From assembly GCA_009780755.1 (NCBI GenBank), contig WQZL01000002.1, forward strand, positions 1 to 38,423: a DNA stretch of 38,423 nt. Reading direction: 5' to 3'. Below are positions 233-30,850 of the stretch, piece after piece. Every line of letters begins with the position of its first letter. The stretch's first letter is position 1. Source of the stretch: Promicromonosporaceae bacterium. Its GTDB lineage: Bacteria > Actinomycetota > Actinomycetes > Actinomycetales > Cellulomonadaceae. The notes beneath the pieces were generated by a model. That model had not been told where the DNA came from and did not search any database. It saw only the letters and a program-made list of their open reading frames with translations. A program made the translations under genes and the position numbers.

Positions 233-733
233 TCAAAATGGCGGCGGCCCGTCCGCCACCGGGGCATCGGCTGCCGCCCAAGGATCATGATCGCTTGTGT
301 TCTCAGCTGACGTAGGCGCCTGTGGCGCTCCGCCGCCCGCGTTGAAGATGAAGCCGCCAGGGCCGGTGCGTTGTTTGCGGGTTACCTGCGCGGTCGCGTT
401 GCGTAACGAGGGGCCGATCTCATCGACCTGTAATTCGTAGGCGGTACGTTTTTCGCCTTCGCGGGTTTCGTACGAGCGCTGCACCAGGCGACCTTGTACG
501 ATAACGCGCATGCCCTTGGTCAGCGTCTCGGCTACGTTCTCTGCTGGCTCGCGCCAAATGGAGCATGAAAGGAACAGACCATCGCTGTCTTTCCATTCAT
601 TGGTCCTCTTGTCAAAGATGCGCGGTGTAGAGGCGATGCGGAAGTTTGCTACGGGTAAACCTGTTGGCGTGTACCGCAGCTCCGGGTCCGCAATGAGGTT
701 ACCTATTACTGTGATTACGGTCTCACCAGCCAT
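233..733 (-). CDS. ssb: Single-stranded DNA-binding protein
   Basis: [35 protein letters not shown]... OB-fold Ssb signature, acidic DHDPW and GPPPF tail. Confidence 0.95.
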
Positions 734-3800: not shown

Positions 3801-6800
3801 TCTACGTCCGTGTCACCCTCGACCGTGGTATCTGTGAGCGTGATGTGATGAACATCCTCGCCACCAACGTTAGCCCAGGTGAAATACACGCCAATCGGGC
3901 GGCCAACCGCGACCACCGCAGCAGTAGCCACAGTGTCAGCATCCAAACCAGTCAACACCATCGATTCCAGACGCAGGAGCGAGGGCATAACCACCGGGTC
4001 AAACCCAACCAAGACAGATAAGTCAACAAAGAAACCTTGACTGTCAGACTCAATCAACGTCTCAGAACCCAGGGTGATCCAACGGCTGGCTTCTGCCCAA
4101 CCACCCTCGTACTCATCACCCCATTCTTGGCGGGCTGAGTAAACCAACACGTTAACCTCGCGCAACAACTCGAACTCCCCGTCGCCGAGGTAAGCCAACG
4201 CTGACCAATCCCCGATGTTCGGGGCGACCAGTTCGATGCCGTTCCAGTTGTTTGGCAGGTCAGCACCTGAACCGATACCAGGAGGCAGGTGCGTTCCGTG
4301 GCTCTTTTCTAACGCAACCCTGGGGCCAGGCAGGTTACGCGGGCGCATCCAGGCGACCCGAGCCATCTGCCGCTCATCATCAGCGCGGCTCAAGAACGGC
4401 TCAGTACGAGCATCCCCTGCGAAATCAAGAACAAACACGTAGTAACCCGCGGCGCATTCCATGCGCAAGTTCCCAGGACAAGGCGCCCACCAGTCCTCTC
4501 CTGGTGGTCCCATCGGAGCAGGCGGTAAACGCAGGTCACCAAACCCAACCTCCCACATCCCATACGGCGTGGTAATCGAAGTAGCCCCAGCCGCCACGGT
4601 CACACGACCATGCTCTGGGGTGCCCTCAGGCACCACAGCGGTATCGAACATCTCCCGAACCGGACCCATCAACGCAATATCTGCCGTGAGCTGGTCCGGC
4701 GCCCACCAACCCGGTACCCCAGCAAACTCACCCTGGGTGGCTGGCATAAACGAGATCGTCATATCATCACCAAACCGGCCGCCCGGAGCGACATTAAACT
4801 CATGGGCAACCGAGAACTTACGGATACGACCCAACACCGAGTGCGTCTCTTCGCCTACCCACCAATCGGTGTCATAAGCAGCAAACAACGCAGTCTCCTG
4901 ACCGTGAGAAGTCCACGTATAAAACCCAAACGGGCCACTATCAGGACGCGGTAGACCCAAGCGCGGAGACGGCACAGTAATCATGGTCAACTCACGAGCA
5001 GTACACACCCGCTGCGTACCCACCCCAGTAAACGTAGCGTCTACCGAGTCCCACGGAACAAAATTCGTGAACGCAGGAGTTACATCCGCCCACGGGCGAC
5101 GAGACTGGGCCTGGTCAAACGGGCCACGCACATCATTACGCACCAACCACACACCAGGACTCGCATCCGCACCAAAACCCGTATGAGGCCACTGGTCACG
5201 AGCATGCGGCAAACTGACAGTGATGTCATCACACAACGCAGTCGGCAGATCATCCTCCGTGATCCGAGCCTGAGTCACCTCCGTGACCACTCGCGGCTCA
5301 GCCGGAACAAACACCGTCTGCGAGGGCTGCCAAGCCCCATGCGACGCCGGAACAATCATCGTCCCAGACTCACCACGCAAATACGCGCTAGAGGAAACCA
5401 CGATGGTGTACCACCCAGAGAACGGCAAATAGAACGTACCAATCCCGCCCGGCAAACCAAGCAAAACATCATCCCACGACGACGCCGTAAACTCGACATA
5501 ACCAACCAGCATGCCAACAGGAACCGCAGTACCAGGAACATGCTGACGATCAAACGGACCATAAACCTGCGCCGTCAACACATGAGCGTAAGCCACACCA
5601 TTAACCGAAGGCCAAGGAATACCAGCCTGTGCCGCGATAGCCGGAGCGAGCATCACCCGATCAGCCCACCGCTGCGCGCCACGGGCAACCACAGTATGCG
5701 TGCCCGGTACCGCCGTCGTAATCGCAATCTCAATTGGATCGACAATCACTGTTTGCGAGGGCTGCCAGTAGCCGTGTTCGGTATGGCCGAACACCTCGCG
5801 TGCCTCATCACTCATCCGCGATAGATCAGTAGCAACATTGATCGTGTAAGCGCCAGGCACACACAGCTCTCCCGTTGGGACACCGCCAATAGCGACGCCC
5901 AGCGCGAGGTCATCCCACGAAGTCGCATAGAAGAACACCTCATCAGCCGGGCCAGCCGCACGCATCGTCGCAGTCGGACGTGTGCCTACTGGCTGAATCG
6001 TGTCCCACCGCCACACGCGAGCCCTAAGAGCCAACGTCATATTCGTGCCGTCCTCATAAGTCGGCCAATCCGCGTCCTCCGGGTCAGGCCACAACCGCAC
6101 CAAATCAGCCCACGCCTCACACGCAGCAATACGCTCATGCGAAACTGGAACCTCAGTCGTAATACTGAAATCCGCCTCCGTACTCACCTCAAAACGAATC
6201 ACCGACGTAGACACCGGACGGTTTTCGTGCTCGAAGGCGCATTCAGGGCTGGTGCGCTCAAACGTCGGCTGCCAACCATCCGGCTCCCGCCGACACATCC
6301 CCGGATCGACGAAGTTGAACACAATGCTCCGATTTACGTAGCCGTTTCCGGTGGCTACCCAAGGGAATGCCAGCCGCTCAGTGGTGGTTGCACCAGAGAG
6401 AGTTCGGCCGTCGGCTGAGACGGTGAAGGCTGTGGGGATAGCGTCACGGTCGAACACTGCGGGGCCATCAAGAGTGATGGTGAACTCGATCCCGGCAACC
6501 CGTATGCCATCAACGGTGGCGTAAATGCCAGTGAGTTCACCGCGTGACAGTGTGGTTGTCGTGTATCCGGCTGTGGTAGTTACTCGAGGGCGAGCGTTAC
6601 CAGCTAGCGTCCACAATCGTTGGGCCTCGGCCATGATGTGGGCTGGGGTGTTGTGCACTATGTCAATACGTGCCAGATGGGGACTGATGTTAACCCCGCC
6701 AGAGTCACGGCCCTGGTCATAGAACATCCTGACCAGCCACACCAGCGCCGCGTTAGAGGCGTGTGATTGGCTGTTCTGGCCTTCGAGGTAGTTAAAGACC

Positions 6801-7420
6801 CAGGCCAGGCGAGCCATTGCCTCAGCTTGGGCTGCGGGGTTGACCACGCCAGGTTCTCTGGAGATTGGCTCGTCTAGGTTGTTAATCAGCCAGTCAACCT
6901 GGCCAGGTAAGAAGTGGTCATGACTGACCAACAACAGCAGTGCATCACCAGTTGGAGCGGTAGCTGGCTGTGGAACCGCCGCTTGGGTCGCGGTCTGGTT
7001 AAACCCATAATGGGTTGCGTAGCAAATTGCCCACCGGCCATCAGGCCCAGCCAGCGGAGCGAATCTCGGGTCAGCCGACCCGATGTTCGTATTGAACCGG
7101 TAACCCGGAGCAACCACCGGCGGGACCGCTGGAATCTGAACAGCAAGATCAGGACTCCGCATCCAACTGTGCGGCAACACCGCCTCAACCAACGGAGCCA
7201 CCAAAACTTCCGGCCCGGATTCGGATTCGGGTTCGGGTTCGGCGTATGCCGGCGCGGCCATTGCGCCCGCAAGAAGAGTAGCGCCCATCGCGACCACCAG
7301 TGCCCCAGCGCCCACAACGCGGAGCCTGGACAATGAACGGCCCGTCCGCCGATGGCGGCCACGGCCACCACACACTGTATTTGGATCAACACCAGATCGG
7401 TGTCTCTTCCACAAACTCAT
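851..7420 (-). CDS. Giant LPXTG cell-wall-anchored surface protein (2189 aa) with three related internal modules
   Basis: N-terminal signal peptide, C-terminal DLPVTG + hydrophobic helix + basic tail; repeated modules beginning VALEKSHG / LDIEKSHG / IDVEKGHG and ending DFDYWYV / DFDYWYI / EDEWWVI; the N-terminal region resembles thioester-domain adhesins. Confidence 0.9.
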   Translation of the reverse strand: MSLWKRHRSGVDPNTVCGGRGRHRRTGRSLSRLRVVGAGALVVAMGATLLAGAMAAPAYAEPEPESESGPEVLVAPLVEAVLPHSWMRSPDLAVQIPAVPPVVAPGYRFNTNIGSADPRFAPLAGPDGRWAICYATHYGFNQTATQAAVPQPATAPTGDALLLLVSHDHFLPGQVDWLINNLDEPISREPGVVNPAAQAEAMARLAWVFNYLEGQNSQSHASNAALVWLVRMFYDQGRDSGGVNISPHLARIDIVHNTPAHIMAEAQRLWTLAGNARPRVTTTAGYTTTTLSRGELTGIYATVDGIRVAGIEFTITLDGPAVFDRDAIPTAFTVSADGRTLSGATTTERLAFPWVATGNGYVNRSIVFNFVDPGMCRREPDGWQPTFERTSPECAFEHENRPVSTSVIRFEVSTEADFSITTEVPVSHERIAACEAWADLVRLWPDPEDADWPTYEDGTNMTLALRARVWRWDTIQPVGTRPTATMRAAGPADEVFFYATSWDDLALGVAIGGVPTGELCVPGAYTINVATDLSRMSDEAREVFGHTEHGYWQPSQTVIVDPIEIAITTAVPGTHTVVARGAQRWADRVMLAPAIAAQAGIPWPSVNGVAYAHVLTAQVYGPFDRQHVPGTAVPVGMLVGYVEFTASSWDDVLLGLPGGIGTFYLPFSGWYTIVVSSSAYLRGESGTMIVPASHGAWQPSQTVFVPAEPRVVTEVTQARITEDDLPTALCDDITVSLPHARDQWPHTGFGADASPGVWLVRNDVRGPFDQAQSRRPWADVTPAFTNFVPWDSVDATFTGVGTQRVCTARELTMITVPSPRLGLPRPDSGPFGFYTWTSHGQETALFAAYDTDWWVGEETHSVLGRIRKFSVAHEFNVAPGGRFGDDMTISFMPATQGEFAGVPGWWAPDQLTADIALMGPVREMFDTAVVPEGTPEHGRVTVAAGATSITTPYGMWEVGFGDLRLPPAPMGPPGEDWWAPCPGNLRMECAAGYYVFVLDFAGDARTEPFLSRADDERQMARVAWMRPRNLPGPRVALEKSHGTHLPPGIGSGADLPNNWNGIELVAPNIGDWSALAYLGDGEFELLREVNVLVYSARQEWGDEYEGGWAEASRWITLGSETLIESDSQGFFVDLSVLVGFDPVVMPSLLRLESMVLTGLDADTVATAAVVAVGRPIGVYFTWANVGGEDVHHITLTDTTVEGDTDVEDIVWWICTNGDPSGLCREDDRVVLDLSSGIARLPGGQILVRASSGVHIQGSLYAPGEMIFGRGVLPGLARGELHGNRAQTTGRGVVTDREGSDFDYWYVRAFGPSLDIEKSHGRPLPPGQGSNQDAPDNHGQIELAIPAIEDWSALLWRGEGTFVLSRDVRVLVYRDHQTWGNQDQGGWASLTRWLTLSADTLIASDTEGFFVNLTELEGFDPTGMPAVLRLGTVVLTGLDADTIETAASVLPGLDVPVYFAITNTGDEPVTEITFTDTTIEGDRPVENIVWGVEFLDHSVTCNEDDTECLLGAAWAKVITLDENNMFRYYHQGTLGELVVLHPTTAYISHRIFGEGVLTGMEPGELHANRATVTGRGVVSDREDSDFDYWYIHTEDGPGIDVEKGHGFWLGAGDGNMGDADNNIAYALVPLVDDRNAVRLDRVSGGAFLRVTRDVTITYGPDAGEVIPAGTTMTPCPDGGDFFIATYVSGTPETGMASSMLPQVPAYRMTGVDADNIYTALLVGPGASVEVWVSFTNNRTEPLSWLRFTDTTLYGPDVTGWTCDYEWNAEGYFITSDGELLVLLPGERFGCDGILEGLEDNEIHANRARIEGIGVISGRPVEDEDEWWVIDPPLASTVALVFPSGASDDALTGYHVIRGPRGEAIGKIGDRSRDRVLINRNLVPAGSTIRVEQFFNAPGQELVCVPGNQVWESALITVGTALVDADGWATYYTGWAHDLDRVGRWHFRARVYTPVGDLLWQDECGWPTEVIYVVDLSTTSGFTGRDNVARRGDYFFDQIHFQGEVPRGMNANVSLGADVFEIPSTCVDWRIEIIPGVTPVIDALGLLECAYQMRHHIGFLHVSKPFTGPGTYRTNQFVWGGGSGSDASVALHWVGRAVITRPGAPSVTADTPVADLPAGSLVITGQWDAEGQTTGPVHRDTWRIQPDLPVTGTQTWPWLLAAGVLAAAGGIALLTTRHSNRPAKQTGKHFA

Positions 7421-7879: not shown

Positions 7880-8929
7880 CTAGCACCGTCCGTCCCCGCA
7901 ATGCAGTGCCCTCTCCAACCACCCCGGAGCCGGCGCAAGAATCCCATGAGGCAACCCCGGAAGAGGACCAGTACGGACAGCACAGAAGTTATTAACCGGT
8001 TGCCCTTGATACATACCCCCAAGCGACCCCACGGCGATCTGGCCACACTCACAATTCAACTCACGCCACAGGGAGCGAGCGCTTTGGTGACTACCCATTT
8101 GTGAAGTGTTGAGGGGACAGGTGAGTTGCCATTCATTGTGTTCGGGGGTGCCGATTCTTGGCGGCACGACCGTGCGGTGTGCGGGTTGGGTGCAGGTGTT
8201 GTAGTTCCCGTCAAGGAAGCCCAGGGTGTAGGCGCGGTATATGAACGCGGCCATTGCTTCGCGGGTGACAGGCTGGGTTGGACGGTATGTGCCATCAGGG
8301 TGACCAGTGGTGATGCCACGAGCGCGGAGCCATTCAATCTCGTGATGGAAAGCCCCACCCCACCCAACGTCAGTGAATGTCGCGTACATAGTGCCGTTGA
8401 ACGTTGGGCACCCGGCAGCGCGGAACAAGAATGCAGCCATCGCTTGACGTTCTACCGGTGCCGTGGGCCGAAACGTCCTATCTGCGTGTCCGGTAGTGAT
8501 CTGGTGTCGGTTCATCCATTCGACATACCGGTGGAACTGGCTACCGCGAGGCACATCCCCAAAGGTTGCCGTAGCAGGCGCGTTGAACCGGCCAGGAGTA
8601 GCCGTAGCGCGGTAAATGAATGCGGCCATAGCCTGCCGCGATACCGGCTCACCCGGACGGAACGTGCCATCACCATAACCAGTAGTGATACCCATCTCCG
8701 CCATCCACTCAATCTGCCGATGGAACGGATGGGTTCTAGGCACATCGCTAAACCGCTGCCCTGATGCCGTCTCAGATGTGGCGTGGCCTTCGGTCTCCAT
8801 GATGTACTCCGCTGTAGGCACGGTGTTGGCGTGTGCGGCAGCGGGAGCCAAGGCGGCGAAGAGCGCGGTGATGACCACAGCTACGCTGAGGCGCGCGGCC
8901 TGGTATCTGCTGAGTAGTGTGGTGTTCAT
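7880..8929 (-). CDS. Secreted protein with three SLH (S-layer homology) domains and a Cys-containing C-terminus
   Basis: FSDVPRTHPFHRQIEWMAEMGITTGYGDGTFRPGEPVSRQAMAAFIYRA and two further similar units; N-terminal signal peptide. Confidence 0.9.
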   Translation of the reverse strand: MNTTLLSRYQAARLSVAVVITALFAALAPAAAHANTVPTAEYIMETEGHATSETASGQRFSDVPRTHPFHRQIEWMAEMGITTGYGDGTFRPGEPVSRQAMAAFIYRATATPGRFNAPATATFGDVPRGSQFHRYVEWMNRHQITTGHADRTFRPTAPVERQAMAAFLFRAAGCPTFNGTMYATFTDVGWGGAFHHEIEWLRARGITTGHPDGTYRPTQPVTREAMAAFIYRAYTLGFLDGNYNTCTQPAHRTVVPPRIGTPEHNEWQLTCPLNTSQMGSHQSARSLWRELNCECGQIAVGSLGGMYQGQPVNNFCAVRTGPLPGLPHGILAPAPGWLERALHCGDGRC

Positions 8930-9145: not shown

Positions 9146-11173
9146 CTATCCGCAGGTGCCGGTGCCTTCGAAGTCGAAGGTAATTGTGGCGTTGGTGGGT
9201 GCGGTGACGCTGATTGAGGGTGCAGCGGGGATGGTCAGGGTCGCGGCGCCTGTGCCGGATGTTTGTTGGCCTCCGGCGGTGATGGTGATGGTTCCTGAGC
9301 CTTCTGCGGTGATGGTTAGAGCGCCGATTCCTGTGCAGGTGACGATGTGATTGCTCGTCGCTGGGGCTTGAGTGTCAGGTGCGTCTGGCTCTGGTGCCGG
9401 GGTTTCTTCTTCGTTGGCGGGGGTGGTGGGTTTGGATGGGGATGGTTCGGTCCGCAGGGTTGGCGGCTCTGCTGGGGTGGGAGCGGGTGGTGTCGTGGCG
9501 GTCTGTGCGGGGGATGCTTCTAGGGAGGTGGGCGTCGCGTTCGGAGTAAGCGAGGGTGTGGTTGATTCTGCTGGAGTTGTTGGGGTCGGCTCGATAGTGG
9601 GTGTCATTTCGGGTGTTGCTGTTGGGGTTGGGCTGGGTGTTTCTGCGGTGGTTATGGTTGTTGGCAGCAGGGTTGTTGATCTCAGGGTTATCCATCCTCC
9701 TGCTCCGAGGGCGATGCTGGCCGCTATAACCAGGGCGCCTACGCCAAGGAGTGCTCGCCTGCGCGGGCGCTGCTCGACCAGGGCGACATGCGCAGGGGCT
9801 AGATCAGTTGTGTTGGGTGGCTGTGTGTTCTGGTCGTGCAAGGGCGGCCACCAGGTGGTGGCGATCACGGTGGCTGGTGCTGGTGGCGTGTGCTCCTCGT
9901 CGTCGAGGCGTTGTGGCGCAATGTCGGGCGTTGCCGCGCGTTGTCCGTCGTTGCCGAACCTTATGGCGGAATGTTCTGCGTTGTCAGGCGTTGTGGCAGG
10001 TTGCTCAGGGTTGTTGGACGTTGCCTGAGAACGTAGGGCGTTGTTGGCTTGGTCGAGATCGGCTTGCAGGCCGCGGCACAGCGCGCTTGCCTGGTCGAGT
10101 TTGCTGGTGAGTTCATCGCGGTCGGCGTTCGAGCGTTGCAGGTCGTTGTCTAGCGTTGTGGCGCGTTGCTCGGCGTCGTCGTGCAACGCTCGGGTTTCGG
10201 CGGCTTCGACAGCAAGGGTTTCACAGGCTTCGAGTGCCTGGTCACGCTCGGTGGTTAGGCGTTGCACGTCCTCGTCTAGCGTTGCTGCGCGTTGCTGAAC
10301 GTGGGCGAGCGTTGCTGCGCGTTGTTCAGCGTGCGTGGCTGCTTCGGTGAGCTGTTCGGCTTGGGTGTCGCATTGGGCTTTGAGTGTTTCGATGAGTTCG
10401 GCATCTTCGGGCCTGGCCTTGGTGGGTGATAGCGCGAGTTGCATGACGCGGGTGTTGAGCCGCTCCACCTCATCGCGGGCGTCCGTGGCTTCGGTTTGGG
10501 CCTGGTCGCGGGCTTGCTCAGCTGCTTTGAGGCCAGACAGTGCGCCCCTGTAGCGGTCATCAAGTTCAGCCAGCTGGCCTGCCAGTCCATCTCGTTCACG
10601 AGCGAGGGCATCGTGTTCGCTGGTTAGGCGTTGCAGCTCAACGTCAGACGTTGTGGCGCGTTGTTCGGCGTTGTCCAGCAACGCGCGAGAACGCTCGGCG
10701 TTGTCTGTTGCGTCAGCGAGTTGTTGGGTCAGGGCGTCGGCCTGGGTTTGGAGGGAGCGGCAGGTATCGCCAAGCTCGATGACTTGTTCCTCTAGCGCTG
10801 TTCGCTGCGCGGCCAGTGTGTCGCGTTCGGTGGTCAAGCGTTGCAGCGCAACGTCAGACATTGCGGGGCGTTGCTCGGCGTTGTCCGGCGTTACAGCAGA
10901 ACGGCCCGCGTTGTCGGGCGTGGTTTGGAAACGTTCGACGTTGTCGGGCGTTGTGGCGGTGATGTCGTAATGCGCGGTGTCGAAGGGGTCGGGCTCGGCG
11001 GTGCTGGTGGCACGTTTGCGGTTCCAGGGCCGGTTAGCACGCCGGGCGGCTTTGCGAGCTTGTTCTTCGGCCGCTTGGGCCGCGCGCTCGGCGAGGGTGT
11101 CGGCACGGCGGGCGTTAGCGTCGGCTAGTTGTTGGGCCAGGTCGGTGGTATCGATGTTCATTGACCGCTCCAT
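9146..11173 (-). CDS. Coiled-coil membrane protein with Pro/Thr-rich stalk and C-terminal extracellular domain
   Basis: Long Glu/Gln/Ala coiled coil with recurring TTPDNAEQ motifs, one TM helix (RRALLGVGALVIAASIALGAGGWITL), Pro/Thr-rich stalk, terminal domain bounded by TCTG...TCG. Confidence 0.8.
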   Translation of the reverse strand: MERSMNIDTTDLAQQLADANARRADTLAERAAQAAEEQARKAARRANRPWNRKRATSTAEPDPFDTAHYDITATTPDNVERFQTTPDNAGRSAVTPDNAEQRPAMSDVALQRLTTERDTLAAQRTALEEQVIELGDTCRSLQTQADALTQQLADATDNAERSRALLDNAEQRATTSDVELQRLTSEHDALARERDGLAGQLAELDDRYRGALSGLKAAEQARDQAQTEATDARDEVERLNTRVMQLALSPTKARPEDAELIETLKAQCDTQAEQLTEAATHAEQRAATLAHVQQRAATLDEDVQRLTTERDQALEACETLAVEAAETRALHDDAEQRATTLDNDLQRSNADRDELTSKLDQASALCRGLQADLDQANNALRSQATSNNPEQPATTPDNAEHSAIRFGNDGQRAATPDIAPQRLDDEEHTPPAPATVIATTWWPPLHDQNTQPPNTTDLAPAHVALVEQRPRRRALLGVGALVIAASIALGAGGWITLRSTTLLPTTITTAETPSPTPTATPEMTPTIEPTPTTPAESTTPSLTPNATPTSLEASPAQTATTPPAPTPAEPPTLRTEPSPSKPTTPANEEETPAPEPDAPDTQAPATSNHIVTCTGIGALTITAEGSGTITITAGGQQTSGTGAATLTIPAAPSISVTAPTNATITFDFEGTGTCG

Positions 11174-11910
11174 TCATCGTCTGGGTCGCCTGGTGGGTAG
11201 AGAATCTGTTGGATGTCATCGCCAGGGCGGCCATCATTGATGAGGTGGATGCCGTTGTAGGGGCGGCCGGCTTCATCGAGGGCGGGCCAGGTGAATGTGG
11301 CATGCACGTCAGGGTTGGAGGCGTAGCTGACGCGGCGAGCGTCAATGTTCTCTGCCGGTGGTGCGATGGGCGGCTCGTGGCGTGTCGCGGTACAAGTGAC
11401 CATTGAGGAGCGCCACCAGTCGCGGGCGTCTTCAAGGCGGCGGCGGAACAGTCCGGGCGCTGAGGTGTCTTTTCCGCGGTGGAACTCTGTCCAGGCTCGC
11501 TCGACATCACTCATGGCGACTACCACGTCGGGATGGAGGCGCCAGCAGGGGGTGAGTTCGGGTAGGCGCCAGATGCGGCTTGCCCACTCGGCGAATCGTT
11601 CAGCTCGTTCTAGCAGGGCTTCGATTTGCCAGAGTTCAGCATCGAGCCAGTTGACGACGCCTGGATCCTCGTGCTTGAACTGTGGCCAGCCCGGGCCGAT
11701 CCGAACTGCTCGGGGGATCGAATCGTCGTCTGAGTGTTCTTCATCGTTGCCGGGCGTTGTCGGGCAATGCTCGTCGTTGTTGAGCGTTGTCGGGTAACGC
11801 TCGTCGTTGTCGGGGGTTGTATCGGAATGTTCGGTGTTGCCGGGTTGTATCTGGTCGTATGCGGCCAGTGCGCGTTGGCGGGCTTCGGTGGGGGTTAGGG
11901 GAGTGGCCAT
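11158..11910 (-). CDS. DUF4913-like protein of a conjugative element
   Basis: Central ...LPELTPCWRLHPDVVVAMSDVERAWTEF... pattern resembles DUF4913; lies inside the T4SS operon with 16-nt overlaps at both ends. Confidence 0.6.
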   Translation of the reverse strand: MATPLTPTEARQRALAAYDQIQPGNTEHSDTTPDNDERYPTTLNNDEHCPTTPGNDEEHSDDDSIPRAVRIGPGWPQFKHEDPGVVNWLDAELWQIEALLERAERFAEWASRIWRLPELTPCWRLHPDVVVAMSDVERAWTEFHRGKDTSAPGLFRRRLEDARDWWRSSMVTCTATRHEPPIAPPAENIDARRVSYASNPDVHATFTWPALDEAGRPYNGIHLINDGRPGDDIQQILYPPGDPDDEWSGQ

Positions 11911-13421
11911 TGGGTGGTTCCTTTGGGGACGACGGTGGAGGTTAGGAGTTGGCCGGGGTGGGCGGCGTGCCAGGCGCGGGAAGCTTTGATGCAGTTGGCG
12001 TGAGCTCGGTGGTGGTAGCGCACGAGGTCAACGATCATCAGCCGAGTAGAGGTTTCGAGGATCGCGGCGGTGCCGAAGGGTAGGCGCCGGATTTCGTCTG
12101 CGGTTAGGCCGGGGACTTCGCGGGTGGAGTGTGTGGTGGAGCCGAGTAGGGGCAAGCCGCCGCCGACTTGGCGGGAGGTTTCGGTGACGGTACGGGTGGG
12201 CATGAGATCGGCGATGCCTTGTAGGTATTCGGCGTTCTTGGAGTTCCCAAGGAGGATGGTCATGGAGTTGTCGCGGATGACGCCGGCGCGTTCACGGGTG
12301 TAGGCGTCTACGGATTGTTCGTAGGTCTGGAAGATCGCGACTTCTTGGACGCCTTCGCCAGCGCCGGCGGACATGACCCGCCCAGCGGCTTTCCACGCGT
12401 AGATATTGGCCAGCTCATCAAGCAGCAGGCCTTGGGGTATGACGAGACGCCCGTCAGGGTTGCGTTGGGAGACTTCACGGGTCACGTCGTTTACGTGATC
12501 GAGGAACAGGGAGTAGAACACGCCGGCAGTGCCAGCGGTGTCGTCGGTGGAGTCTGATCCGTTGGCGATCATGTAGACCGTGCCGCCGTTCAGGATGAAC
12601 TCTCGGGTATTGAAGTAGCCAGGATCGCTCGGCTTGTGAGCGAAGTGCCGCCGAACTTTGTACTCGTGCAGGGGGGCGAGGGCTTGTTCAACGCCAAGCC
12701 ACTTGCTGTCCTGCATGCGGCCTTCGAGAGCCTGGACGGCGGTGAGGGTGAGGTGCCATTGATCCATGAGTGGGTCATCGCGGCGCTGGGCACCAGCCAG
12801 CAGGATGTTGATGGCTTGTTCCGCAGATTGGATGTTCCGCGACCACCGGTAGACATCCTCGATGGTGAGCCCCTCCACGGCTGCTGCGTGGAGTAGGGCT
12901 TGGAGGATGCCGCCAGAGGCGGTGGCCCACACGCCGTCTTTGTTGTCCCCGCCAAGGCCGGAGGCTCCAACGAGGGTAGCGGCGCGTTTCCGGGCGACTT
13001 TTGGGATCTCGCATCCTTCGATGGCTGACCAGTTCACGTTGTGGGGATATCCGCCGACGCCGTCGGGGTTGAAGCAGTAGATCGGCCCCCAGGCTGCGCG
13101 ACATACGGCTGAGGCGATCATGTTGTCCGGGCGGGTGGAGGTGGTGATGATCGAGCCGGGGTATTCGGTCAGGAATGGGATCACGAAGTGCCATCCCTTA
13201 CCGGCACGGGTCGCACCGATCAGCGAGATGGGCCGCTCGACGGGTACCCACACGTCTTCGCCGTTGGAGGTGCCTAGCCAGAACCCCACATCCTGTGGGC
13301 GACGGCCACGCTTTCGTGGGTCGGCTAGTGGCGGGGCGGCGCAGCGCAGCAGCTGCGGCCCGTCATAGAAGCCTTGAGCTGGGCCTGCTACGGGCGGGGC
13401 GGAGAGTAGTTGGAGCGTCAT
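11895..13421 (-). CDS. Type IV secretion coupling protein (VirD4/TraG/TraD family)
   Basis: PISLIGATRAGKGWHFVIPFLTEYPGSII (Walker A-like), LLLDELANIYAWK (Walker B-like); ATG at 13421 overlaps the previous stop as ATGA. Confidence 0.9.
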   Translation of the reverse strand: MTLQLLSAPPVAGPAQGFYDGPQLLRCAAPPLADPRKRGRRPQDVGFWLGTSNGEDVWVPVERPISLIGATRAGKGWHFVIPFLTEYPGSIITTSTRPDNMIASAVCRAAWGPIYCFNPDGVGGYPHNVNWSAIEGCEIPKVARKRAATLVGASGLGGDNKDGVWATASGGILQALLHAAAVEGLTIEDVYRWSRNIQSAEQAINILLAGAQRRDDPLMDQWHLTLTAVQALEGRMQDSKWLGVEQALAPLHEYKVRRHFAHKPSDPGYFNTREFILNGGTVYMIANGSDSTDDTAGTAGVFYSLFLDHVNDVTREVSQRNPDGRLVIPQGLLLDELANIYAWKAAGRVMSAGAGEGVQEVAIFQTYEQSVDAYTRERAGVIRDNSMTILLGNSKNAEYLQGIADLMPTRTVTETSRQVGGGLPLLGSTTHSTREVPGLTADEIRRLPFGTAAILETSTRLMIVDLVRYHHRAHANCIKASRAWHAAHPGQLLTSTVVPKGTTQWPLP

Positions 13422-14032
13422 GACTGGCCTCCAATAGTGGCTGCGGGGACGGCGACGCGTTCCCATTTCTCGGCCAGGCGAGCGCAAGTAAGGGACTCGT
13501 CTTTGGCTGTGACGGTCTTGCCGCGTTCTGCTTGATGGGCGGTAATGAACTCGAGGCCTTCGCGTACCTGGTCTGGGAGGAGTTGGGGGGCTAGGGCGTA
13601 GCCGCGGGAGAGGTCAGCTCGGGCAGAGAACTGGGAGCGCATGTCACCGCTACGAGCTATGAGTTCTTTAGCTGAGGCGTTTGCTGCGATCTCGCTACCA
13701 TTGGCGATGACGCCGGCGCGAGAAAATAGGACGTGGCGGTGCTGGCGCCCGGAGTACCGGTAGCGGAACCACCAACGTGCCGCCGTGACCGTGACAACGA
13801 GCATGCCGATCCCGGCGGCTGCCCAGGGGATGAGCGCAGCATCCGGGGCGAAGCGCCAGATGAATACCCCACCGACCAGGCCGAGTAGCCAGAACATCCC
13901 TAGAGTCTTGGCGAGTTCCTTGCCGTTGAGGTCGGCCAGGTGACCATAGGCTCCGCCATGGCGTATCCACCAGCGCTTGAACCCGCGCTGCTGGCCCGGG
14001 CCTCGGATGATCGGCTTACTGTTGTTGGTCAT
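13418..14032 (-). CDS. T4SS-associated membrane protein
   Basis: Two hydrophobic segments near the N-terminus; 4-nt overlaps with both neighbours in the T4SS operon. Confidence 0.7.
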   Translation of the reverse strand: MTNNSKPIIRGPGQQRGFKRWWIRHGGAYGHLADLNGKELAKTLGMFWLLGLVGGVFIWRFAPDAALIPWAAAGIGMLVVTVTAARWWFRYRYSGRQHRHVLFSRAGVIANGSEIAANASAKELIARSGDMRSQFSARADLSRGYALAPQLLPDQVREGLEFITAHQAERGKTVTAKDESLTCARLAEKWERVAVPAATIGGQS

Positions 14033-15672
14033 GTGCCGAACCTTCCGGCGTCGGTGTTGATAATTCGGTACAAGTCAGGGCCGGCTACCGGGTAGACGGA
14101 GATGGGAGTGTCGTCCCCGATGTGCCACATCCCGACCCCCTGGGGGAGGGTGGTTAGGTGGCGGGCCTCGAACGCGGTGGGCTTAACGAACTCGTTGATC
14201 ATGGCCATCGCTTCGTTCGACTGCCGGTAGAGCACTTTGGTGGCCGACTTGGTGATGATGCCCTTGACCTGGTTACGGTGTTCTGACCCGGCTTCACCGA
14301 ACTGGGTGATATCGGCCAGCTCGTGGAAAATCAGCCAGTTTGAGCAGCGCCAGTGACCGGTCATCCGGAGCCGGTCGTCCATCGCTTGAGCTTGGGCTGG
14401 GTTCCTGATCTCGTCCCACCCTTCTTCGGAGACCACACAGCGCCACCGGCCATCCATGCTGCGTAGCGTGGCGTCGATCCAGGCAGACGAGCAGGCCGAT
14501 GCGATCGCGCGGATCTGTGGGGATGCCCCGCGCAAGTGAGAGGTGTCAATGACGACCATGGGGGCAGCCGGGTCGATGTGCACGGTGGATTCGGTATCGA
14601 ACATCCCGGCCATCGGGCCCCGCACCAACCGGCCGAACACTAGGGCCAGTTCGGCCGGAGCGTCGGGGCCGACCTCGACCAACATCTCGCGAGATGGGTT
14701 CTGCAAGGCGTAGACGACGCCACGGATGGTCGCGTCGACTTGTCCGTCGGCGATGGCTTCGACCACGCGGTCTAGGCAGGCTTGTTCCCGAGTGTTGAGG
14801 GTTTGGCCGTGACGGAGGGTTTCTGCGATCGATTCCAGTGCTAGGGCGCGGCGGGTTAGGACGAGCTGCCGCCACAGATGCTCGGCCATACCGGCAGGCC
14901 TGATGCCCTCATCGAGCGGGTTGAACACCTGACCGGAGCCTGGCCCGATGGAAACAACTTGCCCGCCGAGCGCGTGGGCCAGGGCGATCCATTCACCCTT
15001 GGGGTCAGAGGACACGATGACCTGCACGCCGTCTTCGATGTAGCGGACCATGCAGATCTTGACGCCCATAGACTTACCCGAGCCCTGTAACCCGAATACG
15101 ACGACGTTGGGGCTGGTGACCGAACCGGCGCGGACTGGGCCCCAGGGAGAGTGGGTCCAGGGTTGGCGGCTGGTGGTCTCAAGCCCAATGATTGGCCCTT
15201 CGATGGCCATCGTGCGTGGCGCCAACATCAGCGAGAGCACGCCCATGCGCGCCGAGCTGGTCAGATGGGCTGGCACTCCGGGGGAGAGCGGCCCCCACAA
15301 ACGGTGTCTGCTCCAGCGGCCGCGCCGGAGGCGGCGCGGCATGGTCGGCAGGGGCGTGTTGGTGACGGTGGTGCCAGTGATCTTGGAAAGAGCAGCAGAC
15401 TGGCGGGCATGCTCATCGCGTAGCGCGCGTTTGGCATCTCGGCCACGGGCACCAACATCAGCCACGACTGCGGTGCGGAGCAGCGCATCAGCGGCTGAGC
15501 GCGCCCGCCGTCGGGAGCGGACTTGCCGCTGTGAAGCACGAACCGGCGACGACATGGTTGCTGCGGGCGCGGCTGAGACGGTCTTGCCCGGCTTGTTGGC
15601 GGTTTTAGCGGCTTCGCGGCGACCCGCGCGGGTCATTTCCACCCCAGGAGGAGGATCGATGCGTGGTGCCAT
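14029..15672 (-). CDS. VirB4/TraC-like conjugation ATPase
   Basis: VVVFGLQGSGKSMGVKICM (Walker A), MVVIDTSHL and WRCVVSEEGWDEI (Walker B region). Confidence 0.85.
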   Translation of the reverse strand: MAPRIDPPPGVEMTRAGRREAAKTANKPGKTVSAAPAATMSSPVRASQRQVRSRRRARSAADALLRTAVVADVGARGRDAKRALRDEHARQSAALSKITGTTVTNTPLPTMPRRLRRGRWSRHRLWGPLSPGVPAHLTSSARMGVLSLMLAPRTMAIEGPIIGLETTSRQPWTHSPWGPVRAGSVTSPNVVVFGLQGSGKSMGVKICMVRYIEDGVQVIVSSDPKGEWIALAHALGGQVVSIGPGSGQVFNPLDEGIRPAGMAEHLWRQLVLTRRALALESIAETLRHGQTLNTREQACLDRVVEAIADGQVDATIRGVVYALQNPSREMLVEVGPDAPAELALVFGRLVRGPMAGMFDTESTVHIDPAAPMVVIDTSHLRGASPQIRAIASACSSAWIDATLRSMDGRWRCVVSEEGWDEIRNPAQAQAMDDRLRMTGHWRCSNWLIFHELADITQFGEAGSEHRNQVKGIITKSATKVLYRQSNEAMAMINEFVKPTAFEARHLTTLPQGVGMWHIGDDTPISVYPVAGPDLYRIINTDAGRFGT

Positions 15673-17165
15673 TACTCGTCACCATCCCTGAACCCCAGGG
15701 GGAGCGCGGCGGTGACGAACGTGGCGAGTTGCCGGCCGCGGCAGAGGTTGACGTTCATGCCCGAGGCGGCTTGCCTGACCCACATGTCGGACTGGTCGAG
15801 CTCGTCAACGGTGCGAGCGTGGACAGTAACCCAACCCGAGTAGCTGACATCGCCGTATCCGGCTTGCATCTCCATGTGCCTGGTCTCAACGTCATCACCC
15901 TCGACTTCGGAGACAAGGGACTCGGCTCGGCCGAGCATCTTGTTGGTCTTCGCGGCCGTCTCACGGGCGACTCTGAGCTGGTTGAGGTTCTTCTCGGACT
16001 TGTGAAGGTCGAAGGGCTCCCATATCTGGCAGACGGTTCGGGGGATGGTTCCACCGGCAACGAGCTCGGTCATGACTCCGGCCCGGGCAGGGGTAGATGG
16101 CCACCGTTCGATCCACCAGGAGCGGTGAACCCCGGAGTTGGTGACCAGGTAGTCACGAGCCTCATCGACGTAAGTCACGAGCGGAGTGTCATGGGGGTGT
16201 TCCCAGCCGTTGTCTTCGAGCCAGGCCGCTGCGGCCGGATCGAATGCTAGGCGGATGGCGGCGCGGACGCCGCCGGCGCCGAGCCAGCGGGCGTTGGTGG
16301 TCAGCACGCCACAGTCGGGCATCATGTGCATGAGCCGCTCTACCCGGTTCGATAGCACCACAGAGAGCCCTTCGAGGCCACCGCCGTGGGACTCGATGTC
16401 AGCTAGGGCCTTCTTCTTGGAGATGGTGATCCCGATCAGCACGTCACGACGCAGGGTTGAAGTCATCTGGGTGCGCTCTAGCATCTGCCCGTACTCGACG
16501 CGGGTGAAGTCCCCTAGCGGGCTGGGGTCGTCGATCAGGTCAGGGGCGGGGAGCTGGTCACGGGCGGCCTCATAGGTGCGCGCCCACTGCCCGACACGGA
16601 TCACCCCGGAGACCTGCGCGATCTGCCGGCACAGCTCGTTTGTTGCGTAAACCCGATTGGCTTTGACCTGGTCATCGGCCATCATCCACCCCTCAGTCTC
16701 GACCAATATCACTGCGGTGGCGGTCGGGTTTTTCGGGTTCGCATCCCACACGAGACACGCGTTGTTCCCGTACTCAACATCCAGCAAGGGCAGGACACGG
16801 GTGCGTTCCCCGACGGCGCCGGGGATCGCTATCTGGTCAGGGGCGGACTTAGCGCGCAGGGAGGGGATAGCAACGGTCTGACCGCCCAGCTTCCGGATCA
16901 AAAAAATCCCCTGAACGCACAGGATCGATAGGACTGCTCGGCCCCGGTAGGAGCAGACTGCTACGGCCCCTACTGGTAGCGTCCAGAGGAAGAATGCCTG
17001 AAACGCGCCGCCGAGATTCCCACCAAACATCCGCAACGCGGTTGGGGCGACCGCGATTATGAGCAAGATGATCTGGCGTTTGCCCAGCCCACCGAGCACT
17101 CCGGTGCGTGACAGGGGCGCGAACGTGGCCTTGGGGACGATGTCAGCTGAAGGATGATCGGTCAT
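15672..17165 (-). CDS. SCO6880-family (PrgI-like N-terminus) T4SS protein
   Basis: N-terminal hydrophobic pair, then a soluble domain typical of the protein next to VirB4/VirB6 in actinobacterial ICEs. Confidence 0.75.
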   Translation of the reverse strand: MTDHPSADIVPKATFAPLSRTGVLGGLGKRQIILLIIAVAPTALRMFGGNLGGAFQAFFLWTLPVGAVAVCSYRGRAVLSILCVQGIFLIRKLGGQTVAIPSLRAKSAPDQIAIPGAVGERTRVLPLLDVEYGNNACLVWDANPKNPTATAVILVETEGWMMADDQVKANRVYATNELCRQIAQVSGVIRVGQWARTYEAARDQLPAPDLIDDPSPLGDFTRVEYGQMLERTQMTSTLRRDVLIGITISKKKALADIESHGGGLEGLSVVLSNRVERLMHMMPDCGVLTTNARWLGAGGVRAAIRLAFDPAAAAWLEDNGWEHPHDTPLVTYVDEARDYLVTNSGVHRSWWIERWPSTPARAGVMTELVAGGTIPRTVCQIWEPFDLHKSEKNLNQLRVARETAAKTNKMLGRAESLVSEVEGDDVETRHMEMQAGYGDVSYSGWVTVHARTVDELDQSDMWVRQAASGMNVNLCRGRQLATFVTAALPLGFRDGDE

Positions 17166-22316: not shown

Positions 22317-22604
22317 TTAGTTGTATGGCGTGAAAAACACGCTCCGACCTGCGGCTGGCTCACAAAGCTCTTGCCATATATCAGCTGGCGCATCCATCAG
22401 CTTTGCGGACGGCGTCTGGCGATGATTGCGAAGCACTGGAAGGCCGGCAAGGACTGGTTCAAGGTCATCAAGCAGATCGTGGATGCCGCTTACGTTGTCG
22501 TCGCTTTCCTGTGGCATGGCTCGACAGCACACCTGGTGGCTGGTGCGGCCAAGACTGTTCTCGGTCAATTCGGCCAGGCCATCAATCTGGTCGACCTCGT
22601 GCAT
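22317..22604 (-). CDS. Small acidic hypothetical protein overlapping the end of the rep-like gene
   Basis: ATG inside the rep 3' end (23-nt overlap); the opposite strand is also open. Confidence 0.3.
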   Translation of the reverse strand: MHEVDQIDGLAELTENSLGRTSHQVCCRAMPQESDDNVSGIHDLLDDLEPVLAGLPVLRNHRQTPSAKLMDAPADIWQELCEPAAGRSVFFTPYN

Positions 22605-23940
22605 CGGTTCGTGGTGGTGGCTCGATGGGGGTGGGCTTGGGTCGTCCTACGGTTACTCGGGCGAGGTCGGCTTCGGCGGCGAGGTACGCGGCGGTGTTCC
22701 GGACGCTGGCTGTGTTCATCGGCTGGCCGCCGTTCGCGCGCGCGGCTTGGAGCGCGGCACGAGCTGCAGCGAGTCCTGATGCTCGCACGATGTTCTCCTC
22801 GGTGGTGGGGGAGTGGTTTCGGGTGGCGTCAAGGGCGTGGAGCTCGCGCTGCTGTCTGGTGCCGGCGGCGATCTGCCTGGCCCTGGCTAGGGATCGTTGG
22901 CTCTTGGAAGGCAGTGGTTGGCCGTCGTCGCCCATCCAGGCCACGAAGCGGTACATCAGCCACCTGGCCGGGTGGACGACTCCGTAGGCACCGTAGTGTG
23001 GCGGCCTGGTGTCATCGGGTCGCCAGTCAACGGCGTGGTGGAGGTCAGCTACCGTCCAGTCAGCGGCCAGCCAGGGGCGGATCACGGCCGCGATAGCCCG
23101 CACCGAGGAGCGTCGAAGCACCGGTAACCGGTCTTGGAGGGCTTCGGCGGCCGAAAGGGACATTCTCCGGGCTGCTCTTCGTGTCACCCGCCCGTCACCC
23201 GCCCACGCGTCGTCATTGAAAGCAGCGTCGGTACCTCCCGCCACCGGCTCGCTTGCCGGTGCTGCGCCTACGACCGAGCCAGAAGAACGCGCCCGAAGGG
23301 CGTCCTTCTCTGTTTCGGTCTTGCGCGCGGGTGTGGGATACGTTGTAGTCGTGCTTAGCACGCGGGGGGTCCGAGTTCTTTCCACAGGTTTAGGAACGGC
23401 CAGGACGTATACGGCCGCATCGGCTCGCGGAGGGCCAAACTTGTCGCGGCGAAGCTGCATGCCGGCGGAGCGACCACCGGCTACCACCCCGAGTAGCCCT
23501 TGGGCTTTGAACCAGGCCAGTGCTGAGCCGACGGTGGAGCGAGCCAGGCCGGTTTGTTCCATGAGCCGTGCCCATGTGGGGCGGGTGGTCATCCTGGTCA
23601 AGTCCGCGAACCACGCCAGCACCCCACCAACCGCCAGTAGGTTCGCTTCCCGGTCTGCTCGCACGTTCGCTACCTCGATGGCATGCTGGTAGGCGTTGCG
23701 GAACTGACGGACCGTGGTGGGACGCACACGTCCGGCTGGGATCGCTGCGGTGATCGTCGAGGTAGAGCGCTCCTGCTCACGAGTGGGCCGCCGGGGAAAG
23801 ATGTGCGATCCGCGCGTGTGCTTCTCCCGGACGCAGTCTTTCTGCGGGCAAGGGAGCTTGTCGTCTGTTTCTGGGCGCGCCAAAGACCTCGCCGTAGCGA
23901 GGTGCAGGGTCTCAGAGATCAGGGTCGGGCCGCGGGTCAC
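22582..23940 (-). CDS. Replication-initiator-like / winged-HTH protein
   Basis: WARLMEQTGLARSTVGSALAWFKAQGLLGVV helix-turn-helix; size and position fit actinobacterial ICE Rep-like proteins; GTG start overlaps the previous stop as GTGA. Confidence 0.65.
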   Translation of the reverse strand: MTRGPTLISETLHLATARSLARPETDDKLPCPQKDCVREKHTRGSHIFPRRPTREQERSTSTITAAIPAGRVRPTTVRQFRNAYQHAIEVANVRADREANLLAVGGVLAWFADLTRMTTRPTWARLMEQTGLARSTVGSALAWFKAQGLLGVVAGGRSAGMQLRRDKFGPPRADAAVYVLAVPKPVERTRTPRVLSTTTTYPTPARKTETEKDALRARSSGSVVGAAPASEPVAGGTDAAFNDDAWAGDGRVTRRAARRMSLSAAEALQDRLPVLRRSSVRAIAAVIRPWLAADWTVADLHHAVDWRPDDTRPPHYGAYGVVHPARWLMYRFVAWMGDDGQPLPSKSQRSLARARQIAAGTRQQRELHALDATRNHSPTTEENIVRASGLAAARAALQAARANGGQPMNTASVRNTAAYLAAEADLARVTVGRPKPTPIEPPPRTDARGRPD

Positions 23941-28648: not shown

Positions 28649-29346
28649 GCCACACCTCCTTGCACTGACGGAACGGAATCCGCAGGTGGCGCAGACACCG
28701 AGCCTGCGCCACCCGCACCCAGCAACACCGAGGCGGGAGGTGAAAAACCACCTCTGGTGTCACCGGCATCACCTACCATCGGAACCACACCCGAAGCACC
28801 ACCTTCGGGAGCGCTAACAGCAGAACGAGCACCCGGCTCGCCTGCACGAACGAGAGGTGAAACCTCATGGAAACCCGACCCGAAAGAGAAGCCCTCCTGC
28901 GAATCGCCGCAGGAGACGTACTCGCAACTCCTGCCAGCGAGATCGACTCCATCAAGTCCAAAATCGCGATCAAACTCCGGCAAGGGGGCGGCTGGGTGAC
29001 TATCGACACCATCCCCTACGGACACAAACCCGCCATGAAACGCGACCTTCTCATCAGCCACGGCACTGCTATCACAATCGAACACCCGATCGACTTCAAC
29101 TGATACCGACCCAAGGCGCGCGGTCGAATCCAGAAAAAGCCGCGCCGCAGATCGCGCCGAATGAAGGATGGACACCAACACCGGATCACGCTCAAGCGCA
29201 TCCTCACTCAACCAAGCGCCAGGCCAACAATGAGCAGCAGCTTGTGACAATCCATCAAACACACCAGCAACCTGAAACAGGCGCTCCAACGAAGGCGGCA
29301 CATCTCCGCGCTGGACTAACCCTCGCAGATCAACGGGAACACTCAC
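28645..29346 (-). CDS. Control-operon ORF whose C-terminal half lies antisense to a plus gene
   Basis: Protein-like first ~80 aa (MSVPVDLRGLVQRGDVPPSLERLFQVAGVFDGLSQAAAHCWPGAW...); GTGA overlaps at both ends; SD AAGGAGGTG for the next gene in its tail. Confidence 0.5.
   Translation of the reverse strand: MSVPVDLRGLVQRGDVPPSLERLFQVAGVFDGLSQAAAHCWPGAWLSEDALERDPVLVSILHSARSAARLFLDSTARLGSVSVEVDRVFDCDSSAVADEKVAFHGGFVSVGDGVDSHPAAPLPEFDRDFGLDGVDLAGRSCEYVSCGDSQEGFSFGSGFHEVSPLVRAGEPGARSAVSAPEGGASGVVPMVGDAGDTRGGFSPPASVLLGAGGAGSVSAPPADSVPSVQGGVA
28757..28829. repeat. 73-bp perfect direct repeat, copy 2
   Basis: Identical to 27966-28038; also exactly 37 nt before an ATG (28867). Confidence 0.97.
28867..29103 (+). 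CDS. Small protein (78 aa), paralog of the 28076-28366 product, nested antisense in 28645-29346
   Basis: METRPEREALLRIAAGDVLATPASEIDSIKSKIAIKLRQGGGWVTIDTIPYGHKPAMKRDLLISHGTAITIEHPIDFN; SD GAGAGGTG. Confidence 0.65.
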   Translation: METRPEREALLRIAAGDVLATPASEIDSIKSKIAIKLRQGGGWVTIDTIPYGHKPAMKRDLLISHGTAITIEHPIDFN

Positions 29347-29951
29347 ACTGCACCTCCAGATGCACTAGCAGAACCAGCAATAACAGCCAGGGGCTCATCC
29401 GCGACCGGCTGCACGGTCGACGCAAACCCTGCGCTGACCGTCGAACCCACATCCGATGGCGGAAGATGCCCCTCAGCACGCAACGCCGTAATATCCGCGC
29501 GAACCAACCGCGGCGAACGACCCAACTCCGCCGCAATCACCTCCACACTCCAGCCAACAGCGACCAGAGCCCGCACCCGCTCACGAGTCTCGTCCAACAC
29601 ATCCCGACCCAACGGAATCACCCGACCATCACGCCCACGCTTAAACCCCGGCGGCGGCGGAACCGACTGAGGTGCAGGAACAGGCGTCCGACTAGGGGCA
29701 ACAGCAGAATCGGCGTCAGCCTCCGCCGTTGGGCTTATGCCCTCTCCAGCCATCACGTTTTCCAGCGTGTCGCGAAAAAACTGAGCCACGCGCGCGAGCT
29801 CGACAGGTTGCCATTTGACGCGGCCTCGCTCACGATCGGAGAGGGTCTGTCGGGTTAGGCCAACCTCCTCGGCGAAGTCTGTCTGACTCAGTCCGCGCAG
29901 GCGTCGACGTTCGCGGATCGAGTGATGCTGGGTGCCCAAGGTGTCGCACAT
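29343..29951 (-). CDS. XRE-family HTH regulator with a second HTH-like region, first gene of the control operon
   Basis: IRERRRLRGLSQTDFAEEVGLTRQTLSDRERGRVKWQP; second SVEVIAAELGRSPRLVRADITALRAEGHL; ATG at 29951. Confidence 0.85.
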   Translation of the reverse strand: MCDTLGTQHHSIRERRRLRGLSQTDFAEEVGLTRQTLSDRERGRVKWQPVELARVAQFFRDTLENVMAGEGISPTAEADADSAVAPSRTPVPAPQSVPPPPGFKRGRDGRVIPLGRDVLDETRERVRALVAVGWSVEVIAAELGRSPRLVRADITALRAEGHLPPSDVGSTVSAGFASTVQPVADEPLAVIAGSASASGGAV

Positions 29952-29957
29952 GCTGTC

Positions 29958-29986
29958 ATAGTGCCGAATATTTCGGCGACAAGCAA
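29958..29986 (-). promoter_or_regulatory. Predicted promoter of the XRE gene: TTGCTT-17-CACTAT, 6 nt before ATG, spacer holding a palindrome
   Basis: Read on the minus strand; palindrome GCCGAA-TAT-TTCGGC at 29963-29977. Confidence 0.45.
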
Positions 29987-30007
29987 ATCGCCACGCGGCA
30001 ACCTGCG

Positions 30008-30036
30008 TTGCGCAATGACGAGAAATGCGGCATACT
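30008..30036 (+). promoter_or_regulatory. Predicted promoter of the plus HTH gene: TTGCGC-17-CATACT, 6 nt before ATG 30043
   Basis: Same spacing as the divergent promoter; TTGCGCAA palindrome overlaps the -35. Confidence 0.45.
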
Positions 30037-30042
30037 TTCCCC

Positions 30043-30414
30043 ATGGTCATCACACTGCCAGCCCCAGCGGCGCCTCCTGCAACACGATCAGATGCGGTGC
30101 GGTTGGAGGTTCGTTCTGAAGCCGGCCGCTGCGGTTTCACAAAGAGTGCGCTAGGCCCGCTGATGGGGATGTCACGTCAGTCAGTGGGGGATCGCTGGAG
30201 TGGTCGTGTCCCCTGGACCATTGACGAGGTGGACAGTCTGGAGATGATCTTCGGCTTGGCGCCTGGCACTTTGATGGCTCGCGCTGTCCTCGCGATGTAC
30301 CCGGAGGTGGCGATGGCTCCCACCCTGGTTGGGGCGAGGTTTGCTAGTAGTGCGCCCCCGGCAGGATTCGAACCTGCGACCGACGGATTAGAAGTCCGGC
30401 GCTCTATCCACTGA
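30043..30414 (+). CDS. HTH (Cro-like) protein whose 3' end lies inside the tRNA-Arg gene (alternative ATG 30025)
   Basis: EAGRCGFTKSALGPLMGMSRQSVGDRWSGRVPWTIDEVDSLEMIFGL; C-terminal PPAGFEPATDGLEVRRSIH is antisense to the tRNA. Confidence 0.65.
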   Translation: MVITLPAPAAPPATRSDAVRLEVRSEAGRCGFTKSALGPLMGMSRQSVGDRWSGRVPWTIDEVDSLEMIFGLAPGTLMARAVLAMYPEVAMAPTLVGARFASSAPPAGFEPATDGLEVRRSIH

Positions 30415-30425
30415 GCTACGGAGGC
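30353..30425 (-). tRNA. tRNA-Arg, anticodon TCT
   Basis: GCCTCCGTAGCTCAGTGGATAGAGCGCCGGACTTCTAATCCGTCGGTCGCAGGTTCGAATCCTGCCGGGGGCG; acceptor stem GCCTCCG/CGGGGGC. Confidence 0.95.
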
Positions 30426-30514: not shown

Positions 30515-30850
30515 ATGGGAATCGACGCCCCGGTGATCCGGCAACTTGTGGCATACAACGCCCGTGACATCGACGCCTTCGTGCTCAACTTCCATGAAGA
30601 CTGCGTGGTTGAGGATGGCGCAGGCAAGGAGCTGATGCGCGGGCGGAAGGCCATGCGCGAATCGTATGGCCGCATGTTCGCCGCCTCGCCCGACCTGCAC
30701 TGCCGCGTGGTCAGTCGCATCGTGTTGAGCGAGTACGTGCTGGACGAGGAGCGCGTCACGGGCCGCGCCGGTATCGAAGGTGAGGGGCACGTCGTTGCCG
30801 TCTACCGTGTCGAAAACGACGAGATTACCCACGTTCGTTTCCTGCGGTGA
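30515..30850 (+). CDS. SnoaL-like / nuclear transport factor 2-like protein
   Basis: VAYNARDIDAFVLNFHEDCVVEDGAGKELMRGRKAMRESYGRMFAASPDLHCRV. Confidence 0.8.
   Translation: MGIDAPVIRQLVAYNARDIDAFVLNFHEDCVVEDGAGKELMRGRKAMRESYGRMFAASPDLHCRVVSRIVLSEYVLDEERVTGRAGIEGEGHVVAVYRVENDEITHVRFLR

Follow-up and report, generated by a model that had tools for sequence, protein, structure and literature searches.

In the integration-dependent switch of phage BPs, the repressor gene has attP in its 3′ part and its product is shortened on integration; the long form is degraded via an ssrA-like tag, both forms bind DNA alike and the short one is active (PMC4557955). Related arrangements are described for the Gordonia phages McGonagall, Jeanie and GMA5, in which attB lies in a tRNA-Lys gene (PMC5559632), for prophages of M. 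abscessus, where some systems have no ssrA-like tag (PMC8092301), and for Bifidobacterium prophages, which were interpreted by the same in silico method (PMC6109161). The switch is thus already known in phages, and the new part is its use by conjugative elements that carry a type IV secretion system (T4SS): the literature searched, which left out most subscription papers, contained no description of an integration-dependent switch in such an element. One paper uses both "integration-dependent immunity" and "conjugative", and passages of it apply the former term to its prophages.

The module described here lies in the window, by which we mean the whole stretch of 38,423 nucleotides that was analysed. 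It resembles that of BPs and relatives (PMC4557955) in having attP in the 3′ part of a repressor gene (rep), which is shortened on integration, a tyrosine integrase gene (int) downstream on the same strand, a divergent operon headed by a helix-turn-helix (HTH) gene, and attB in a tRNA gene. A BPs-like topology had been proposed in the first-pass annotation, and all of these parts were recovered, while operators were not demonstrated. The likeness to BPs is one of topology, no sequence comparison with BPs gp33 having been made; unlike the window element, BPs is a phage and not conjugative, and tag-driven degradation of the long form has been shown for it. The prophages of M. abscessus (PMC8092301) and Bifidobacterium (PMC6109161) share with the window the placement of rep and int at opposite att ends, facing a tRNA, and a stop codon supplied by the junction, but they carry no conjugation genes. 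We consider it likely that the window contains the right-hand end of an integrative and conjugative element (ICE) inserted in tRNA-Arg(TCT), with a phage-type rep-attP-int switch that ties conjugative quiescence to integration; the activity and stability of the two repressor forms are inferred.

Table 1. Coordinates of the rep module, the attachment site and the divergent operon in the window
Feature	Position	Strand	Basis or remark
Single-strand binding protein (SSB)	233..733	-	Pfam
TraG/VirD4 coupling protein	11895..13487	-	Pfam
VirB4/TraC-like conjugal transfer ATPase	14029..15672	-	NCBIfam, below cut-offs; colinear homologues in sibling T4SS regions
SCO6880-family conjugation protein	15672..17165	-	NCBIfam
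Unknown-family gene	22582..23940	-	Common to Arthrobacter-type plasmids and small integrative elements
XRE-family HTH gene heading the minus-strand run, divergent from rep	29343..29951	-	Pfam HTH_3
Intergenic region between rep and the divergent operon, 91 bp, expected operator region	29952..30042		Function inferred
Palindrome CCGAATATTTCGG upstream of rep	29964-29976		Single copy in window
rep, Cro/CI-type HTH repressor, integrated (short) form, 123 aa	30043..30414	+	Alternative start 30025; PHROG 4583 match
attR copy of the att core, 57 bp	30349..30405		Identical to L009 (C70) 10917-10973
tRNA-Arg(TCT), intact, attachment site of the element	30352..30425	-	ARAGORN
TGA stop of integrated rep	30412..30414	+	From tRNA D-arm antisense; outside shared core, absent from reconstructed attP
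SnoaL-like gene, chromosomal flank past the tRNA	30515..30850	+	Pfam

The first-pass annotation had the HTH reading frame ending inside the opposite-strand tRNA gene, with about 21 final codons of antisense tRNA. Reading frame and ARAGORN coordinates agree on this, and the last 63 nt of rep, antisense to tRNA-Arg(TCT), encode 20 residues and a stop, ending in SSAPPAGFEPATDGLEVRRSIH (in the full listing the tRNA-encoded end reads APPAGFEPATDGLEVRRSIH). All nine members of the repressor family alignment matched PHROG 4583, "transcriptional repressor", and most of them, though not the one from the window, matched Pfam Cro/CI families. Searches of viral contigs, phages and plasmids gave no close relatives of the window HTH, and a search of a named genome collection returned one remote locus only. 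A paralogue on contig C27 of the same metagenome-assembled genome (MAG), 74% identical over 97 aa, supports the rep start given in the table by its own start (MAITTLAP...) and enters tRNA-Lys(TTT) in another frame than rep does. For this pair of genes dN was 0.18 and dS 1.22 over codons 1-97 (dN/dS about 0.15), and 0.13 and 0.64 over codons 79-97, which lie past the HTH domain. Since dN is far below dS, rep is under purifying selection, codons 79-97 included. The C27 paralogue (L010 8160-8541, minus strand) stands alone with no element beside it, and may be a remnant or a kept immunity gene.

A search of the whole MAG with this region returned an exact 57-bp copy of 30349-30405 on contig C70, matching the expectation that another att site would mark the left end of the element. 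The integrase start codon follows 47 bp past this core (ATG at L009:11021), and the sequence after the core (ccccgtgagtcacgggagctgcgcatagtctggcatgttctggcggcATG) is the start of a tyrosine integrase that runs for 67 codons to the contig end. Its N-terminal core-binding region aligns with the armless-type integrases of the related loci collected below, and its catalytic half is unassembled. The exact core copy and the adjoining int therefore place attL-int on C70 and rep-attR on the window, a strong inference from sequence and not a proof, as these are separate contigs of a fragmentary MAG and the join is inferred. If C70 is the left end, the att core lies within the rep reading frame and the attP frame is open across it. 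The integrated tail, EVRRSIH and stop, is then replaced on the circle by EVRRSPRESRELRIVWHVLAAC, still open at the contig end, and the reconstructed attP frame (EVRRSPRESRELRIVWHVLAACRNYKNLL) contains 82 codons without a stop up to that point. The attP form would have at least 203 aa compared to 123 aa for the integrated form, IH and the stop being exchanged for at least 82 other codons. The predicted difference in C-terminus between the integrated and circular states was obtained on this condition. An altered tail was thus found, but a recognisable degradation tag remains unsupported for the window element because the contig ends before the stop of the long form. Unlike in relatives, this long form overlaps int in another frame. 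At the position where a locus of the same genus, L047, has CTGGCGGCATGACC, giving an end in LAA and stop, the window has CTGGCGGCATGCC, so the stop that makes LAA is missing; the difference may be real, or may reflect decay or an assembly error.

The minus-strand run of the window carries T4SS genes, which bears out the earlier suggestion that the element is conjugative. Of two criteria for an ICE, the presence of conjugation ATPases and a coupling protein was met by the TraG/VirD4, VirB4-like and SCO6880-family genes, and that of a flanking att pair with an integrase by the 57-bp direct repeat and the int start, the latter on the separate contig C70. No virion families were found among the scanned window proteins (Pfam/NCBIfam), T4SS genes being present instead; no relaxase was recognised among them, and part of the element is unassembled. 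The palindrome upstream of rep has no second copy in the window, and a set of operators could therefore not be demonstrated. The conjugative plasmid of Citricoccus sp. I39-566 (NZ_CP133844.1) arranges its SCO6880-family, TraC-like, TraG and SSB genes in the same order, and its operon likewise begins with an HTH gene, but in the stretch read it has no divergent tRNA-reading repressor and no adjacent integrase, and it was rejected as an excised circle of this type on these grounds. The unknown-family gene of the window is also present in small elements with the same switch (G006, G067, G068) and is perhaps a replication gene. Within the element, a 2189-aa reading frame at 851-7420 (-), whose end weakly matches a sortase motif (LAVTG), and the product of 7880-8929 (-), which has three S-layer homology domains, are possible surface or mating-contact proteins.

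The arrangement suggests a cycle, in which rep, the attP core and int would lie in this order on one strand and the transfer operon would be transcribed away from rep. In the excised, circular state the rep frame would cross attP into a foreign tail ahead of int. Crossover on integration would remove this tail, the antisense strand of the host tRNA giving the stop codon, and the resulting short repressor would keep the divergent transfer operon switched off. Integration would also cut int, which stands behind rep on the circle, off from rep. On excision, or on arrival in a recipient, the long form would return and repression would be relieved with int again behind rep, until integration resets the system. 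The att copies, the geometry, the tail swap, the homologous integrase and the recurrence in other conjugative elements are demonstrated as far as sequence can do so; the roles of the two forms, the short one as an active and stable repressor of the transfer operon and the long one as inactive or unstable, are inferred by analogy with phage BPs.

The tail was swapped in all ten further attP reconstructions. These comprised five prophages (G012, G246, G255, G076 and G347, with tape-measure-like proteins recognised by reading the sequences), two small elements (G006, G067) and three conjugative elements bearing T4SS genes: G261 in tRNA-Met (85.4 kb, on a single chromosome contig), G340 in tRNA-Lys (52.9 kb) and G088 in tRNA-Asn, whose attL-like site is on another contig and perhaps belongs to a sibling copy. 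The integrated frame stopped 0-8 codons past the core in every case and the attP frame continued for 12-66 codons. In most reconstructions the two att copies cease to be identical at the stop codon or beside it, and this codon is read from the antisense strand of the anticodon loop; for the window and G340 it comes from the D-arm. Two loci were found in a natural attP state without reconstruction. In L047, rep ends in GLAA and stop and is followed by int; in L290 (G573), rep ends in RHQGLEPRTHWLRVCGRVLLILAAFPVALVVLCVFAGRD and stop and is followed by two genes and int, and this locus pairs with the integrated L289, in which rep ends in FRVVRHQGLEPRTH and stop. The L290 region (2922-5998, on a 2.4-Mb contig) carries, between rep and int, a gene for a nucleotidyltransferase that reads as AbiE-like, and int is followed by a ParA-like gene. 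Although ends in -AA, -LA or -VA occur in several relatives, the long forms of the conjugative G261 and G340 carry no ssrA-like tag, the G261 tail being hydrophobic. These two, and the M. abscessus phage systems that also have no tags, leave room for a real tail swap that works in another way, with the long form active, or with a tail that alters DNA binding, partner contact or coupling to int and not stability. We regard this as unlikely, though it keeps some weight, given that the BPs forms bind DNA alike and the short one is active.

How general the arrangement is was examined by searching an HTH profile against 222 genomes of the family and 396 of the order and scanning the fetched loci. 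There were 28 distinct profile HTH genes that faced a tRNA no more than 600 bp away; all of them ran into that tRNA without an earlier stop, and their stops fell 38-63 nt inside it. The tRNAs entered were Lys, Asn, Met, Arg and Phe, in several frames, and further loci outside the 28 added tRNA-Arg(ACG) and tRNA-Thr cases. Eight of the 28 came from the sequences used to build the profile and about 20 were found by the HTH domain alone. Because the profile was seeded on tRNA-reading genes, this count indicates uniformity of the family and not frequency among all HTH genes. Some 481 codons separating the domain end from the tRNA had to be free of stops, which gives a chance product of about 1e-6 to 1e-8, and on the evidence of these reading frames chance is ruled out for HTH genes running into facing tRNAs. 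It could still be argued that the genes merely abut an attachment site and have lost their own stop, the tRNA and attP tails having no regulatory meaning: one frame of antisense tRNA is frequently open, the HTH domain stops well ahead of the tRNA, and tail length is no evidence by itself because random high-GC sequence gives similar lengths. Such neutral run-on is rather improbable, and it fits poorly with the uniformity of the 28 genes across five tRNA types and several frames. It also fits poorly with the tail ends. The ten reconstructed tails ended in GGVA, AVAA, RLAA, TTAS, ARAV, ECVA, TVSA, GADR, KQGE and MRLA, RLAA being the end of the G255 tail; a final Ala was present in 6 of 10 in-frame tails compared to 1 of 20 in other frames (p = 0.002), and a motif (DLAAWRA, YLAEWRA or DLAAYRA) was common to three elements. 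A broader small-residue test was picked after the data had been seen and is weaker evidence. Homology to modules with a described effect stands against it as well, as the repressors and integrases of the set are related to immunity modules of Gordonia phages, some of them described as integration-dependent. In these relatives int lies directly downstream of the immunity repressor, and one viral form ends in NPEPADRLLSLVAA and stop. McGonagall, Jeanie, GMA5 and Bunker share a related repressor and an armless-type integrase with the set, their viral forms end in VAA and AAA, and the McGonagall core encodes the same antisense tRNA-Lys peptide, CAIRDSNPEPA; unlike the window these are phage genomes, and the window repressor is only remotely similar to theirs.

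Flank synteny did not confirm the join of the two contigs. Genomes of the same genus have tRNA-Arg(TCT) close to tRNA-His (and orn, by reading of one protein) and pepP at another place, so synteny neither backs nor refutes the link between C70 and the window contig (C2). The remainder of int was not found in the MAG, whose two Xer-like (by reading) and two other integrases do not continue the C70 gene. That the C70 site belongs to a different element in a tandem array at the same tRNA, leaving the true attP and tail of the window element unknown, is very doubtful: the contigs are broken, their synteny is unconfirmed and C70 has one more, older att remnant (9391), with an integrase start that has decayed, but the core is identical over all 57 bp, the window tRNA-Arg(TCT) is the only intact one found in the MAG, and no other MAG integrase is cut at a contig end. 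The remnant region (C70 9391-10959, L009) is read as a decayed tandem element at the same tRNA, and its Fic-type cargo gene has its own frame ending in the second att site (SNLRPTD followed by TAG from the anticodon loop), so that it too reads into the core. The MAG contains another integrative element, different from that of the window, at L245 (C11), where an integrase gene adjoins tRNA-Thr(CGT) and is accompanied by a P-loop ATPase that reads as FtsK/TraB-like.

Returning to the reading of the window as an ICE with a phage-type switch, homologues of its T4SS genes are enclosed by the att sites in G261 and G340 and adjoin a tRNA-reading HTH gene in G088, G415, G508 and G473. In G458, TraG alone was found, with no attL within 120 kb, and no tRNA-reading HTH gene was found in the stretches read of the sibling T4SS regions G143, G149, G213, G079, G078 and G200. 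The HTH-domain tree was poorly resolved overall; it placed the G088 repressor with the immunity repressor of phage Bunker (99/98) and the tRNA-Met ICEs elsewhere (97/94). Phage and ICE labels require at least two changes on supported branches, so the modules seem to have moved between phages and ICEs on more than one occasion. We lean modestly towards the wider proposal that conjugative elements from several actinobacterial families have exchanged a rep-attP-int switch with phages at least twice, in which the host tRNA would supply the stop of the active repressor, integration would silence transfer, and a new circle would stay derepressed until integrated.

For most systems it is not settled how ICEs couple quiescence to integration, and a repressor that receives its C-terminus through recombination would act as a switch without need of a signal protein. 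If this is true, transfer genes would be quiet only while the element is integrated, incoming circles would express their transfer and integrase genes in a burst, and immunity against siblings would arise only after integration.
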